Source: a virus. Taken from it: a DNA stretch of 25,202 nucleotides. Under the pieces are notes generated by a model, which worked only from the letters and a program-made list of their open reading frames with translations, was not told the origin of the DNA and did no database searches. The translations under genes and the position numbers were made by a program. The stretch covers positions 1-25,202 of IMG/VR virus record IMGVR_UViG_3300030103_000485; one strand, written 5' to 3'. Every line of letters begins with the position of its first letter. Positions within the stretch are counted from its first letter, which is position 1. Shown in pieces: positions 13,462-24,932 of the stretch.

Positions 13462-14972
13462 AGTGCAAATCCATAGTGTGATTGTGACTCAATAATATGT
13501 AATGACTTTTTAGCACGAGTTAGCCCCACATAAAACGTCCGTATTTCGGAGTCTTGATCCCTGCTTTCAACACATGCCCTTGAGGAGTCTAGCAGTAGAG
13601 CTACGTTATCCGCCTCGCCACCTTTTGCTTTGTGAATCGTCGATATCTTGATCCTCGGGGTCCCAGTCAAAATAGACTCGCCCATACGACGTACTGATGT
13701 AATGTATATTCGTTCCTTCTCGCTGACCTTCAGAACTTCGTACCACGGTGTCTCCTTGGTCACAGACGGGGACAACAGGTCTTGAATATCTGTTAGCGTG
13801 TAAGTTTGTTCGGTGTCTAAACTTGCGAGTTTCTTCCTGCCACCTCTGACGGTAGCGTCTGGGACTATTAATGTGGATAGCTTCTTCAATTCCTGTGCAG
13901 ACAGTGCTTGATCCTTGCATAGTTTTAGCCATACCTCGATTCCGGTTAGAACATTAGGGGAAATGGACCAGCCGGAACCTTCACGCCAAAACAGGTATCC
14001 TTGCTCTTTAATTGTGGTTGCGATCTTGTTAGCAATGAAATTGGTACGGGCTAAAATTAGCCACTCTCCGGCTGTTAAGTCCACATCAAGGATATCACGA
14101 TGCCAGACTACAGTGCCAGTTTCATCTTTAGGTTTCCAAACTTTTTGCTGTCTTGTACGAAGCTGTTTTACAAGAGAATCCGCGACATTATACACAGACT
14201 TGGGGAGTCTATACGACTTGTCTAATACAATCTTATTTTCGGATGCCCTCAAAAAATCTCCTACGTTTACACCCATCCAAGAGTAGATGCATTGATCGTC
14301 ATCGCCAGCAAAATATATGCGCTTTGCCTTGGGTTTAATTATATCGTGAACCATCTCCCACTGTAGCGGGACAAGGTCTTGCGCTTCGTCTACAATAAGC
14401 ACATCAAGATCAGGACTATGTCCTTGAACTATAAAGTCCTCAATCATGTCCACAAAATCTACCTTATTTGTTTCTTTCTTGTAGTCCTTGATAACCTGAT
14501 CCACCACCTTTAGCTGCTGAAAATGCAGTCTCCTGTCGTTGGTTATTTGGAACTGCTCTTCCAACGTCCTACCAGTAACCCTAGCCATCTGTATCATTGA
14601 TAGGTAAGCATCACCGCTTTTTCCTGCGGTAAACAACACACCGTCCTGCATCGTCAGAGAGGCGTTTGAAGAAAACTCTAACCCTATAAGGTCTGCTATT
14701 TTTGAGTAGTCAGAACCACGCAGCACACGTTCCTTAGTTAATCCAAGACAATGATACGCGAACGAATGTAAGGTCCTAAACCAAACCATTTGTCCAACAT
14801 CCATGCCCAACTTTTCTGCTGCCCTTGTCCGCGCTTCTTCCGCAGCTTTACGGCTGAATGAAACAAACGCTATGGACTCTGGTCTAGTGCCACTGTCCAA
14901 CTCTTTTTGTACAATGTTAATTAACTGTGTTGTCTTGCCCGTTCCCGGGGGTCCGAAGATAGTTGTTTCCAT
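13458..14972 (-). CDS. UvrD/Rep-like SF1 DNA helicase
   Basis: 504 residues with the ordered SF1A motifs: Walker A GPPGTGKT at 7-14, motif Ia FVSFSRKAAEE at 36-46, Walker B with DEAQD at 195-199, motif III AGDDDQCIY at 222-230, motif IV around SYRLPKSV at 243-250, motif V STIHKAKGGEAD at 454-465 and motif VI VGLTRAKK at 482-489. It is shorter than cellular UvrD (about 700 residues), with reduced 1B/2B subdomains. It would unwind DNA with 3'-5' polarity at the phage fork. Its ATG lies in a TAATG overlap with the primase stop, and the two are probably made in fixed proportion. Confidence 0.95.
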   Translation of the reverse strand: METTIFGPPGTGKTTQLINIVQKELDSGTRPESIAFVSFSRKAAEEARTRAAEKLGMDVGQMVWFRTLHSFAYHCLGLTKERVLRGSDYSKIADLIGLEFSSNASLTMQDGVLFTAGKSGDAYLSMIQMARVTGRTLEEQFQITNDRRLHFQQLKVVDQVIKDYKKETNKVDFVDMIEDFIVQGHSPDLDVLIVDEAQDLVPLQWEMVHDIIKPKAKRIYFAGDDDQCIYSWMGVNVGDFLRASENKIVLDKSYRLPKSVYNVADSLVKQLRTRQQKVWKPKDETGTVVWHRDILDVDLTAGEWLILARTNFIANKIATTIKEQGYLFWREGSGWSISPNVLTGIEVWLKLCKDQALSAQELKKLSTLIVPDATVRGGRKKLASLDTEQTYTLTDIQDLLSPSVTKETPWYEVLKVSEKERIYITSVRRMGESILTGTPRIKISTIHKAKGGEADNVALLLDSSRACVESRDQDSEIRTFYVGLTRAKKSLHIIESQSHYGFAL

Positions 14973-16507
14973 TAGAACGGCACCTCGTCACCTTGGACCC
15001 TGACCGCCGGAACAAGGACCTCTCTGTTAAACGCAGGAACCCACCACACACGAAGAGGCTTACTATCCCCTTTTGTAGTCTTAAATCTTTTAAGACCGTT
15101 AGCCGCGCCACCAGAGTTAAGCTCCTTCAAACGCTCTTGTATCTGTCCACGACTGTATGTCTCAAACTTGTTGTTACGCAGGTACTTCATCAACGCTTCT
15201 ATCTTGAAGTATGTCATGTTGTCCTCATCGTCGGTAAACGGTTTACCAAGTGTGATCTCTTCGGCTGACTGAGCCTGCACCCTGCCATCGCAAAATCCTT
15301 CAAGAAGATCCATGAACTGACCCTTGTATGTAAGTTCTTCGGGGACCTCAATCTCGCTCATGTCTTCCATCATTACGGAAACAATTTGCTGCCACACATC
15401 CATCTTCATCAGCGGTGGCATCTTACGGATCTGTTCCATGCAAGCTTTTTGAAATCTTTGTGGTGTCTGTAAGTCATCAGTTGTTAGCTCAACACGATGT
15501 CCAGCTACATCACAAAACCAAACAGGTGGTTCCGACTTAACTACACATAACCCCGACACATCCATGTTCGCCGCATGACTGCCGATACCAAACTTTCTTG
15601 TCTTGCAAAGTGTCTTGTTGCAAAAACTTTTAAGTGGTTCCTGATCACACGGGAATCCGTACTCTTTCTTCTCGTGCTGGTTCTGGATCGTAACGATCTC
15701 CGACGCTGGCAAGGAAGGAGTGCAGTGCTTGTTGTTAATTTCTTCTAGTCTGGCTTTCCAGTTTTCGGGCTGCTCTTTCTTACAGCCCACGGCTGCTGCA
15801 AACATCACTGTGTTGCGTGTGCCTTCGGGAATCCCCTGTCCGAACATACAGCCCAGACAGGGGGCCCAATCCTTGAACTCGTCAACCTGTTTACCAAATG
15901 TCAAACCAACAAATCCATCTGGTGATACAGCCCTCGCGTCAACAAGGTCAAGGAATTCTTTTAACGACGCTGGCTCTCCGTCTTCCCTAATCGCGTAGCG
16001 GAGAGTTTGTTCCGCATCAAAGTACGGCAGGTTAATAAAGTTCCCCACATCGCCACGCTCGACAAGAACTTGTTCTTGCTTTGGGAATACCTCGCAACCA
16101 CCATACCCAAGATACGATGATATTTCTGAAGCTTTGTCACGGAACTCTCCTGCATTGATGTACTCTTTGAAGAAGAAAAATATATGCGCCCCACCAGACT
16201 TTGAACGACATACCACTGAAGGTATTTTTAAATCGCGCAACTTTTTGTCCAGCGCAACAACGTCCAGCGGGTATTGATCGATATCCAACGCACCGAACTT
16301 GCAGTTATTTTCTTCGTTAATCGGTATAGAGCCAACACCATTGGTGCCTTTTAGATGCTCCTGAATTAGCTCTTCCGTTAGTGGTTTGCGAACAATGAAT
16401 GACTTAGCTTTTTGTTTGCCAGCCCTTCTCTCGTTCGATATTTGTGTCTGTCCATGCGCTGCGCTGAATCCTTCAAACGCAGCCATGAACCTTTGTAAAT
16501 AGGTCAT
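14972..16507 (-). CDS. Archaeo-eukaryotic-type primase (AEP / primase-polymerase)
   Basis: 511 residues. The N-terminal domain (about 1-200) has the AEP catalytic signature: D75-x-D77 (FGALDIDQY), S104-GGAH108 (SKSGGAHIFF) and a third motif at 139-162 (EVFPKQ then GNFINLPYF). This resembles primases of the TOTE-type AEP family. About 210-310 hold Cys217, 220, 287, 296 and 301 (CNKTLCKTRKFGIG), a likely metal or Fe-S site as in primase C-terminal modules. The C-terminal 100 residues may be a winged-helix-like domain. The last residues are GDEVPF, like an SSB tip. TGAGGAC precedes the ATG by 8 bases. It would make primers for the PolA enzyme. No DnaG-type primase is present. Confidence 0.88.
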   Translation of the reverse strand: MTYLQRFMAAFEGFSAAHGQTQISNERRAGKQKAKSFIVRKPLTEELIQEHLKGTNGVGSIPINEENNCKFGALDIDQYPLDVVALDKKLRDLKIPSVVCRSKSGGAHIFFFFKEYINAGEFRDKASEISSYLGYGGCEVFPKQEQVLVERGDVGNFINLPYFDAEQTLRYAIREDGEPASLKEFLDLVDARAVSPDGFVGLTFGKQVDEFKDWAPCLGCMFGQGIPEGTRNTVMFAAAVGCKKEQPENWKARLEEINNKHCTPSLPASEIVTIQNQHEKKEYGFPCDQEPLKSFCNKTLCKTRKFGIGSHAANMDVSGLCVVKSEPPVWFCDVAGHRVELTTDDLQTPQRFQKACMEQIRKMPPLMKMDVWQQIVSVMMEDMSEIEVPEELTYKGQFMDLLEGFCDGRVQAQSAEEITLGKPFTDDEDNMTYFKIEALMKYLRNNKFETYSRGQIQERLKELNSGGAANGLKRFKTTKGDSKPLRVWWVPAFNREVLVPAVRVQGDEVPF

Positions 16508-16564: not shown

Positions 16565-17347
16565 TTAAAACGGTACGTCGGCTCCTTCTTCTGCTTGTTT
16601 CTCTCCAGTACCCGTCTTAATATCACCAGCCTTGAAGGACTCGTACATTTCTTGAGCCTCCTTCTGCGCTGCTACAGGAACGTCATTTAACTCCATCTTG
16701 GATACCGCGAAGTTGAACCACGATCCCTTGTCGTTACTTTCCTGCACAGTAGTTAACTTCCACGGAACTGCCCACATAGGTGGATTAAACAATCCCTTCT
16801 CTGGGTGCATTATCTTTAGCCCAGCCATCTTTGTGTTCCACTGCTTGGCAACCTTCATCTGTGTCTTCTTCATGTCACAGATCATCTGTGTGGTAGCACC
16901 ATCTTTGTCTACCCCAAGCACTAGGAACTGTGCCACGCGAACGAGCTCGTTGCCGGAAGGCAGCATTTCATTCGCACCCACACGTTCAGTCTTTCTTATA
17001 TCAGGATGACCAGCTTCTAACTCACCCATGAAACCACCACCTGCTTCGCGAAGTTGAAACTCCAAAAACTTTGTGGTGTAGGCACACACTAGAACGGTAA
17101 GACCAGCATCTGCTTCCCAAACCTGACCAGTCACAGTGTTAAAGATATCCCCTGCCGACGCACCCTTAATGTACTTTGCGTCTGTCTTTAAAAGTTGGGG
17201 CGACAAAGGTTGTAAGATCCGTAGAAATGGGATCTGCATATCCTCTACACCAATTTGATCCATGCCTTGACCTGCGCTCTCGAACAGATCATCCATTATG
17301 TTTGCCACTGCTGTGGACTTTGCTTCTGCTACTTGTGTATCAGCCAT
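16565..17347 (-). CDS. SSB-like putative single-stranded DNA-binding protein
   Basis: 260 residues when started at the ATG at 17347, which has GAGGAA about 6 bases upstream and begins one base after the previous stop. A longer reading from 17425 has no such site and would overlap the upstream gene by 77 bases. The core (about 35-225) alternates strands and loops rich in aromatic and Lys residues (WNTKMAGLKIMHP, FNPPMWAVPWKLTTV). The C-terminus is Gly/Lys then acidic, ending EEGADVPF, very like the D-x-PF tip by which bacterial SSB recruits partners. It lies between the primase and a coiled-coil protein. The SSB role is inferred from tip, size and context, since I see no certain OB-fold signature. 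Confidence 0.65.
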   Translation of the reverse strand: MADTQVAEAKSTAVANIMDDLFESAGQGMDQIGVEDMQIPFLRILQPLSPQLLKTDAKYIKGASAGDIFNTVTGQVWEADAGLTVLVCAYTTKFLEFQLREAGGGFMGELEAGHPDIRKTERVGANEMLPSGNELVRVAQFLVLGVDKDGATTQMICDMKKTQMKVAKQWNTKMAGLKIMHPEKGLFNPPMWAVPWKLTTVQESNDKGSWFNFAVSKMELNDVPVAAQKEAQEMYESFKAGDIKTGTGEKQAEEGADVPF

Positions 17348-17348
17348 T

Positions 17349-17912
17349 TTAGTTCCTCTTAATTTTAGCTTCAGTGCCGACATAGATACCGAATGTATCA
17401 AAGTCGATGTCTTTACCAGATTCAATACGCCCCTTCACCCAAGCCTTTAAGGTTTGCGGATGAACGTGAGTTTTTTGCGCTGGTTCAAACCCCCGATTGC
17501 GAAGGTCATCGATCACCGCACCGGCCATATTATCCTGACCGACGTTGAACGAAACTGTTACATCATTCTTTATGATGTCGCCTTCACCGATAGAACGTAG
17601 CCAAGAAAAAGCTTCGTCCCTCTTTTCATCAGTGATCCTAGCATGCACAAATTGACGAAGTGCTACCTTGTTACCATCAACGGTAATGCTATCCATGCCC
17701 ATCTCCTGCATAAGAGATGGTATGTCTTCTTCGTTAACTTTTCTTTTCTTGAATTTTAGATCCTTCAGATACTGCTCTGCTTGTGCAATCTCTTCGTCGA
17801 TCTTGATAGACTCACGGATTAGGGTAGACAATGCGCTGCCCTTCTCACCGCTTACTTTGTCGAACTTACCGGCATCGACCTCCTCGTCCATTAGCGAGAA
17901 TATATCGCTCAT
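17349..17912 (-). CDS. Coiled-coil protein of the replication operon
   Basis: 187 residues. Residues about 25-62 form a charged helical hairpin (IRESIKIDEEIAQAEQYLKD then KFKKRKVNEEDI), followed by a short strand pair (MGMDSITVDGNKVALRQF) and a helical C-terminal domain (AVIDDLRNRGFEP, PQTLKAWVKGRIESG). The helical-hairpin-then-strand plan recalls Gp157-type or nuclease-inhibitor phage proteins, but I cannot place it in a family. GAAGGAGA lies 8 bases upstream of the ATG and the gene is followed at once by the SSB-like gene. It opens the replication operon proper. Confidence 0.65.
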   Translation of the reverse strand: MSDIFSLMDEEVDAGKFDKVSGEKGSALSTLIRESIKIDEEIAQAEQYLKDLKFKKRKVNEEDIPSLMQEMGMDSITVDGNKVALRQFVHARITDEKRDEAFSWLRSIGEGDIIKNDVTVSFNVGQDNMAGAVIDDLRNRGFEPAQKTHVHPQTLKAWVKGRIESGKDIDFDTFGIYVGTEAKIKRN

Positions 17913-20824: not shown

Positions 20825-21053
20825 AGACCTCCACGCCCCCGTAGGCTTCCTTGCCTGCGGTCTCTTGGACTTCGCCCCATGTCTCCGCCATCATGTCATG
20901 TACGTCAGATAGATTTAAATGACTGACCATGTCCATGTGACCTTCCATCTCTGAAGTGAAATTAAAATAAGTTTCACTCCGGTCTGCGACCTCAATCATT
21001 TTGTCCATGAACTGCTCCTCAAACTCCAGAGCCATCTGTTTCATTCTACCCAT
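20811..21053 (-). CDS. Small acidic protein, unknown function
   Basis: 80 residues, Met- and Glu-rich, helical (MKQMALEFEEQFMDKMIEVA, DVHDMMAETWGEVQET), ending in acidic residues. AAGGAGG lies 9 bases upstream of the ATG and the start shares a TAATG with the preceding gene. The family is unknown. Acidic small proteins in early phage regions are sometimes host-takeover or anti-defence factors, which is only a possibility here. Confidence 0.6.
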   Translation of the reverse strand: MGRMKQMALEFEEQFMDKMIEVADRSETYFNFTSEMEGHMDMVSHLNLSDVHDMMAETWGEVQETAGKEAYGGVEVYDGD

Positions 21054-21559
21054 TACGCAGCCTCCTTCATTAAGTGATCTACAGCCTTGGCGTGTTCCCT
21101 AATGACAGACAAATCTATGCTTCCATCTACCCGAAAATACCAATGCTTCCCAACGTGATTTAAATAATTCAACAATATTTTTGCACCAAGCGGCCTAACA
21201 TAAACTTTCCATCGACCAGACCAACGGAAGGAAGGAAAGCCCACGTTTAAAACGTGTTTGCTGTAAGTGTCAGTGGTGGAGTAATTACTGCGTTTGCCCT
21301 TAGTGTAAACGTCACCCGATATGTGAAACATCTTATTACAGTCAGCACGAAGTCTAGTGCTGACGTTGTTTGGTGTTCGTATCAGATTGGGTATAGAGTC
21401 AAAAAATTTACTGAACTCAATCACTGGCACTTTAGAAAATTTGTTGAATTCAACTTCTGCTTTGGTAAACCCCTCACCTATACGCCACACTTTTTCGCAG
21501 CCGTGATACATGTGTGTAACCGGATGAGGTGCATTAGATTTTTTTGTCCACTTACTCAT
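21053..21559 (-). CDS. Basic protein, unknown function
   Basis: 168 residues from the ATG at 21559, chosen because AGGAGG lies 9 bases before it. A TTG at 21568 would sit directly against that site. The protein is basic and rich in aromatic residues (SKWTKKSNAPHPV, SFRWSGRWKVYVRPLG, KHWYFRVDGSIDL). A helical C-terminus (IREHAKAVDHLMKE) ends it. It shares an 8-base overlap with the previous gene. I do not recognise a family. Nucleic-acid binding would fit the charge. Confidence 0.6.
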   Translation of the reverse strand: MSKWTKKSNAPHPVTHMYHGCEKVWRIGEGFTKAEVEFNKFSKVPVIEFSKFFDSIPNLIRTPNNVSTRLRADCNKMFHISGDVYTKGKRSNYSTTDTYSKHVLNVGFPSFRWSGRWKVYVRPLGAKILLNYLNHVGKHWYFRVDGSIDLSVIREHAKAVDHLMKEAA

Positions 21560-24192: not shown

Positions 24193-24240
24193 TAAGGTTT
24201 TTTTTGGGTTGAAGAAAAATTTTTTATTTTTTTTGAAAAA
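24193..24240. other. AT-rich poly-T/poly-A tract
   Basis: About 48 bases, nearly all A or T, with runs of up to eight T (around 24197-24204 and 24226-24233) and AAAAATTTTTT. The tract could be a bent or easily melted element next to the iteron-like array, or a T-rich terminator for rightward readthrough. No GC stem precedes it. Confidence 0.5.
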
Positions 24241-24242
24241 GG

Positions 24243-24317
24243 CGTTACAAACGTTACAAACGTTACAAACGTTATCCAGTAAGGGCTGTAGCTGTAACAC
24301 TTCTGTAACGTTGTAAC
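24243..24317. repeat. GTTACA/TGTAAC iteron-like array
   Basis: Three perfect tandem 9-bp units CGTTACAAA at 24243-24251, 24252-24260 and 24261-24269, and a partial CGTTATCC at 24270-24277. Three inverted copies TGTAAC follow at 24293-24298, 24304-24309 and 24312-24317. AACGTT palindromes recur at 24250, 24259, 24268 and 24307. It lies next to an AT-rich tract and immediately before the terminase gene. The layout suits a replication origin, a terminase cleavage (pac) site or a regulator-binding site. Confidence 0.75.
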
Positions 24318-24341
24318 ACTTTTCAACTCGTATTGCCCCAC

Positions 24342-24932
24342 ATGAGAAGGTTTTTGACATTGAAAAAGACTGAACCCACAGAAAACACTATAGGCAAAGG
24401 TGGTAGACCGGCTGGTCTTACCAACCGACAAAGAGAGTTTGCCAAGTATTATATTGATGGTAGATACAGCAATGCGGAATGTGCAAGAAAGGCAGGCTAT
24501 GCTGCCGACAGCGCGAGAAACCATGCGGCTAAACTTCTTGACGGTAAATCTTTCCCAGAAGTGCCAGAACTTATCAAAGAACTTCGCGAGGAACGAGAGC
24601 GAAAGTATGGAGTGACATTGGTCAACCAACTTAAACGCTTTGATGAATTGTCCCACGCTGCTGAAGAGGCTGGGCATTTTTCTGCCGCCATCAACGCTGA
24701 AAAAATACGTTCTAGTCTGGGTGGTCTGACCATTGACAGGCGAGAGCAAAACCATGTGCATCAACTTGACAGCATGTCGAGAGAAGACATCGTTGCTAGA
24801 CTTGCTGCCATACGAAAGCAATATCCAAACGCTTTCCCCGAACCGGAGATGAAGAGGGTTGAAGATGCCAAGAACAGAACGATCACTGTGGACATCATTG
24901 AAGCAGAACCTGCCGAAAAGGACGCACTTTGA
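24342..24932 (+). CDS. terS: Terminase small subunit
   Basis: About 190-196 residues. The segment LTNRQREFAKYYIDGRYSNAECARKAGYA then SARNHAAKLL is the helix-turn-helix of the terminase small subunit (Terminase_2 type), which binds the packaging site. A charged coiled region (ELIKELREERERKYGV) follows for oligomerisation. The C-terminus is acidic (DIIEAEPAEKDAL) and likely contacts the large subunit. The ATG at 24342 has no ribosome site, while AGAAGG at 24345-24350 lies 9 bases before TTG 24360 and 3 before TTG 24354, so the true start may be a TTG. It is preceded by the iteron-like array and overlapped by the next gene. Confidence 0.88.
   Translation: MRRFLTLKKTEPTENTIGKGGRPAGLTNRQREFAKYYIDGRYSNAECARKAGYAADSARNHAAKLLDGKSFPEVPELIKELREERERKYGVTLVNQLKRFDELSHAAEEAGHFSAAINAEKIRSSLGGLTIDRREQNHVHQLDSMSREDIVARLAAIRKQYPNAFPEPEMKRVEDAKNRTITVDIIEAEPAEKDAL

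Follow-up and report, generated by a model that had tools for sequence, protein, structure and literature searches.

The window (the whole stretch of DNA that was analysed, a 25,202-bp viral record) contains a repeat array at 24243-24318, made up of a half with direct units, a spacer, and a half with inverted units. The direct half consists of three exact tandem copies of CGTTACA (GTTACAAAC) on the plus strand (24243-24267), with a 9-bp period that places them at 24243-24249, 24252-24258, and 24261-24267. This 0/9/18 geometry is common to most relatives. A decayed fourth unit, CGTTAT (24270-24275), and a spacer of about 20 bp (together CGTTATCCAGTAAGGGCTGTAGC, 24270-24292) join the direct half to the inverted half, which has three units on the minus strand, TGTAACA, TGTAACG, and TGTAACA (24293-24318), at offsets of 49, 60, and 68 from the first direct unit. 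The TGTAAC copies in these units are at 24293-24298, 24304-24309, and 24312-24317. We write the recognition unit as YG-NNN-CA, and we refer to arrays with the core TTA, as in the window, as type A. The length of the spacer and its TAGC end are largely conserved among relatives. In the window and in relatives the spacer also contains a small palindrome, CCCTTA-TCCAG-TAAGGG (24274-24290), whose 5-nt centre is TCCAG or CTGGA, in an orientation that differs among contigs.

The array separates early genes that run leftward from the terS operon, which runs rightward, and it is located 3' of a promoter-like TATAAT. The terS gene itself (Terminase_2, 24333-24932, plus strand) is directly downstream. 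On the other side the array adjoins an AT-rich tract (24193-24242), a candidate duplex-unwinding element; across 110 relatives the AT content of the 50 bp preceding the array averages 79%, compared to 54% in the whole window. The GTTACA hexamer has no general enrichment in the window, with 17 sites against 13.9 expected, yet six of its sites fall within 75 bp. When the window was simulated 300 times with a first-order Markov model, no 75-bp cluster had more than three copies of GTTACA or four of any hexamer. The window itself has no second such cluster. A first-pass annotation, made from the sequence alone, had described three direct units, a decayed fourth, and three inverted TGTAAC copies, unlike anything else in the window and flanked by an AT-rich tract and terS. 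We found the units at the positions it gave, both neighbours were as described, and the clustering exceeds that expected by chance.

We identified related loci by a TerS search of viral contigs, which gave at least 80 loci, and by viral scans, which covered up to 80 loci each, so that sampling is uneven. Searching phage records at the DNA level revealed nothing close to the window. In every relative examined whose sequence covers this place, about 100 contigs, the array is 5' of terS, and its geometry is nearly fixed, with direct units at 0, 9, and 18 and inverted units at 49, 60, and 68, apart from small shifts in some types. The sequence of the unit is not fixed. It occurs in more than 10 discrete types within nearly identical flanks, including GTTACA, GATACA/GGTACA, GTAACA, GTCTCA, GTCACA, GGAACA, GTGGCA, and GTGACG, with GGGACA, GTACTGA, GTAATGA, and GTGTTGA added by later searches. 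The commoner types share the YG-NNN-CA consensus and have a variable core. A clear case of switching is the pair of contigs G004 (GTTACA, type A) and G005 (GTCTCA, type D), which share mostly 97-99% identity over a stretch that starts 6.4 kb before terS and extends to 24 kb beyond it, the exceptions being small gaps and the array. The array is of a different type in the two contigs, in surroundings that are nearly identical. The first-pass annotation had proposed that absence of the repeats from close relatives that keep terS would count against a functional site; the repeats are not absent, and relatives keep the architecture with the unit sequence swapped.

Three other observations were made in these loci. 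Exact GTTACAAAC triplets in L090 and L094 look coding. An unrelated phage has three GTTACAAAC-type direct units between head genes (L087:3027-3049), with no inverted half. In G004 and G009, an open frame of 195-209 aa on the minus strand is found between terS and terL, some 1 kb downstream of where terS starts; it differs strongly among close relatives (44-99% identity), independent of array type.

Because the G005 contig does not include the primase, the protein that follows the array type could be found only with other pairs of contigs. A scan of the shared proteins for columns that split type A from type B in two backbones led to a single residue close to the C-terminal end of the primase, Leu472 in the window. 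The primase gene (14972-16507, minus strand) is 8 kb from the array in the marine phages. Its product was identified as an AEP (TOTE/CAPP-like) primase by Pfam, Foldseek, and phrog_21866 (primase). The AEP catalytic domain is in the N-terminal part (Pfam AEP-TOTE, E 3.6e-18; Foldseek, CAPP Prim-Pol 7nqd, E 1.2e-9). AlphaFold models place a winged-helix domain at the C-terminus (about residues 424-491; 15035-15238, minus strand), and a model of a 105-residue construct has good confidence in the core, with predicted helices at construct residues 30-39 and 47-57 and predicted strands at 64-70 and 76-85. Leu472 (codon at 15092-15094, minus strand) and Arg474 (15086-15088, minus strand) are in the first wing strand, and Pro484 (15056-15058, minus strand) is in the second.

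The best PDB fold matches of the winged helix were weak ones to TcpK (E 0.18 and 0.42), and a search of PDB sequences with a profile of the winged helix was uninformative. A search of cellular genomes for relatives of the primase found none. In the fetched loci we found no winged helix-turn-helix domain occurring without the primase; the single match was a primase cut by the locus boundary. The primase and the neighbouring SSB-like protein (16565-17425, Pam3 gp34-like) have acidic-hydrophobic tails, DEVPF and ADVPF, that resemble the protein-binding tip of SSB.

Forty-two contigs contain both an array and a primase. We reduced these to 25 independent points, each defined by the primase N-terminal cluster at 93%, the core, and the residue. 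The array unit and the primase wing co-vary. Over the 25 points, the NMI between residue 472 and the core was 0.876; 20,000 permutations averaged 0.494 and went no higher than 0.730, and none reached the observed value. Column 472 ranked first among the 209 variable columns of the primase (z 8.96), followed by 484 (z 4.71), 474 (3.53), and 485 (2.61), all of them in the wing; the best column after these had a z of 2.39. Counted in clusters, the pairings were TTA with Leu (five), TCT with Lys (four), ATA or GTA with Gln (three), GTAACA with His (three), GTAACG or GTAACC with Val (three), GAA with Arg (one), and GGA with Gln (one). For odd units residue 472 is Gly, Ala, or Pro, each in a single lineage, and Pro pairs with two different degenerate arrays. 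The core TAA occurs with His, Val, or Ala at 472, depending on the lineage and the end of the unit. Residue 474 is tied partly to the unit end: it is Arg with GTCTCA and Tyr with GTCTTA (L341, L352), with L251 and L272 mixed, and it is Asn with GTAACG and Lys with GTAACC. As far as the alignments indicate, residue 472 is an incomplete one-letter code for which the contexts at 474 and at 484, the third specificity position, matter.

The permutation test ignores relatedness, and we therefore built a tree of primase residues 1-417. The minimum number of changes on this tree was 16 for the core and 18 for residue 472. Among pairs on supported branches, the same direction was found in 4/4 for TTA/Leu, 4/4 for TCT/Lys, and 3 to 4/4 for RTA/Gln, and the opposite direction never, with so few pairs that a sign test alone cannot reach 0.05. 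Two pairs of contigs (G011 and L352, G009 and L401) are identical over residues 1-417, yet their wings and their arrays both differ. The G009 and L401 primases differ at three of 511 residues: 465, 467, and 472, the last being L472Q. In the 8 kb from wing to array, G011 and L352 are mostly 94-100% identical where aligned, with gaps and a few divergent stretches, and identity falls at both the wing and the array. One long co-inherited segment is therefore not the simple explanation. The likely reader of the array, judging from this co-variation, is the primase wing.

The residues expected at position 472 were written down before two further rounds of searching. The new contigs that agreed were L366 (GTAACA, His), L401 and L395 (GATACA, Gln), L448 (GTAACG, Val), and L484 (GGTACG, Gln), of which L395 closely resembles a known contig and L484 has a distant backbone. 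Two units were outside the rule: TGGGACA, found with Gln in L367 and L368 and again in the distant L444, and GTTACG, found with Leu in L350. The primase gene of L444 (L444:10001-11526) is frameshifted just after the codon for residue 472, by either a sequencing error or a broken gene. There was one clear failure, L438, which has Thr at 472 in a wing otherwise paired with TGTGTTGAG units but whose array is of CGTAACG units. L441, another mosaic of this kind, has Ala at 472, which the rule allows. In both contigs the end containing terS and the array (L438:1-2230, L441:1-2900) is 94-99.8% identical to another phage group and the rest is like the L437 group, so that they may be recent recombinants or assembly chimeras.

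Members of the primase family with about 30% identity are found in cultured phages of Klebsiella, Pseudomonas, Salmonella, Providencia, and Acinetobacter. In these phages, arrays of direct and inverted units occur just 5' of the primase gene, and they were among the top hexamer clusters when Klebsiella, Pseudomonas, and Acinetobacter phage genomes were scanned whole. Units and wings again differ together: TGGAACG occurs with the wing TKLRVNKMPLN (Klebsiella, Pseudomonas, and Salmonella phages), TGGAACC with TKLKINKSAVN (Providencia), GCAACC with GALKVNKSSV (SH-Ab 15497 and DMU1), GGAACC/GTAACC with GSIKVNKSAV (Bhz9), and GAAACC/GTAACC with GAIKVNKSAV (53 and pB23). Since these records are few and related, their apparent co-variation is support for the pairing rather than an independent test of it. 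Acinetobacter phage SH-Ab 15497 (L423) has two arrays (43038-43140 and 20961-21060), one 5' of the primase gene and one 5' of terS. The primase of Pelagibacter phage HTVC023P is a more distant one, and this phage has CTAGGAAA repeats clustered before terS. Cultured HTVC023P and phage 023Pt_psg01 (L248:11680-11770, L249:21100-21198) have clusters of their own near terS, CTAGGAAA and GTGCCA.

We consider it quite probable, on the basis of these comparisons, that the array is a set of iterons bound by the C-terminal winged helix of the primase, most likely a replication origin or the site of first priming. The proposal of an origin draws on the job of a primase, the AT-rich tract, and the iteron-like layout. 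The C-terminal winged helix would bind up to three copies of the unit in each orientation, the bound copies would bring primase to one place, and the AT-rich tract next to the bound array could open. The wing hairpin (472, 474, 484) would read the variable core of YG-NNN-CA, with the rest of the winged-helix domain, which is nearly constant, presumably reading the invariant bases. A switch in specificity would require the wing and all of the array units, at sites about 8 kb apart, to change together. Physical binding, origin function, and the order of these events are what we infer from the comparisons.

The same co-variation would be seen if the array were an operator, at which the primase wing represses or switches transcription (early leftward to late rightward) and does not start replication. 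The position of the array between divergent early and terS genes, 3' of the TATAAT, would suit an operator, as would its location 5' of the primase gene itself in the cultured relatives. However, a primase would be an odd repressor, the AT-rich tract and the many-copy layout of direct and inverted units suit an origin, and one array per genome fits an origin better than a regulon. We regard a purely regulatory site as unlikely; dual roles as operator and origin are possible.

A packaging (pac) site read by TerS is much less probable still. In the marine relatives terS follows the array directly, but in the cultured phages of all five host genera the array adjoins the primase gene, and TerS can be identical where the unit types differ (L020_B and L021_B compared to L022_D; L025_D compared to L026_C). 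No column of TerS follows the type, the best having a z of 2.05, so that specificity does not follow TerS as it should at a pac site. The first-pass annotation had suggested an initiator or packaging recognition site, with TerS, the RHH protein, and the SSB-like protein as proteins to be tested for binding. In our sequence comparisons none of the three follows the array type. G004 is of type A and G028 of type C, yet their RHH matches are identical, so that specificity does not follow the RHH protein as expected of a CopG/omega-type operator, and no column of the SSB-like protein separates types A and B. The initiator half of the suggestion gains support from the co-variation with the primase wing, and nothing points to a pac site. 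Least probable is selection for a folded RNA or a DNA hairpin or cruciform in which the direct and inverted halves pair: single strands do fold better than their shuffled versions (z -2.3 to -4.5), but this is expected of any inverted repeat, pairing in 37 heterogeneous arrays is no better in the nested register (0.875) than in other registers (0.867), and the tie to the primase wing would be left unexplained.

Iteron origins, which occur in plasmids and in phages such as lambda and P4, have short direct and inverted repeats beside an AT-rich tract, to which the replicon's own replication protein binds. The array shows features expected of such an origin: short direct and inverted repeats, clustered and unique in the genome, an adjacent AT-rich tract (as judged by composition only), and a repeat that co-varies with the DNA-binding part of a replication protein, with the mosaic L438 as the exception. 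It differs in its proposed reader, a stand-alone primase that has no helicase domain. An AEP catalytic domain with a C-terminal winged helix is also found in PolpTN2, for which origin recognition was proposed as speculation (PMC5862659). That enzyme belongs to another AEP family, and its cognate site was not identified (PMC5862659).

The winged-helix protein TcpK of plasmid pCW3 binds 9-nt tandem repeats at oriT with its beta-wing and not with the canonical helix (5vfx/5vfy; PMC6137059). TcpK is a conjugation accessory protein of unrelated sequence, and the modelled fold match is weak, if suggestive.

The closest precedent is the replicon of the PLE satellites of Vibrio cholerae, in which the RepA_N domain and the ori iterons co-vary and only cognate pairs were shown by experiment to replicate (PMC8263062). 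In both systems the DNA-binding domain of an initiator co-varies with an iteron origin, initiator and origin both being putative in our case, and the two appear to be exchanged as a matched pair between otherwise similar elements. The protein families and folds are different, RepA_N there and here a primase with a C-terminal winged helix that Pfam assigns to AEP-TOTE. In addition, PLE has domain swaps between two groups in a satellite, whereas here a few wing residues distinguish more than 10 types in an autonomous phage. The origin-directed nuclease Odn is thought to drive origin swapping in PLE (PMC8263062). Our tentative suggestion, to which we give somewhat less than even weight, is that origin conflict with co-infecting phages, satellites, or origin-cutting nucleases keeps origin-specificity groups diverse in the phages studied here, with escape occurring through the three-residue wing code and the array units changing in step.

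We found no paper in the open-access literature that describes these arrays or the code. If our interpretation is right, it provides an origin and its reader for a family of abundant marine phages and, at lower similarity, for the cultured Klebsiella, Pseudomonas, Salmonella, Providencia, and Acinetobacter phages. The idea that AEP primases locate the origin with their C-terminal winged helix, so far a speculation, would also become a base-level model that can be tested. The more than 10 natural matched pairs, one of them only three primase residues apart, make the code open to simple binding assays. The finding raises the question of why phages change origin specificity so often, and if true it would represent a natural, readable protein-DNA code for the choice of a replication origin.
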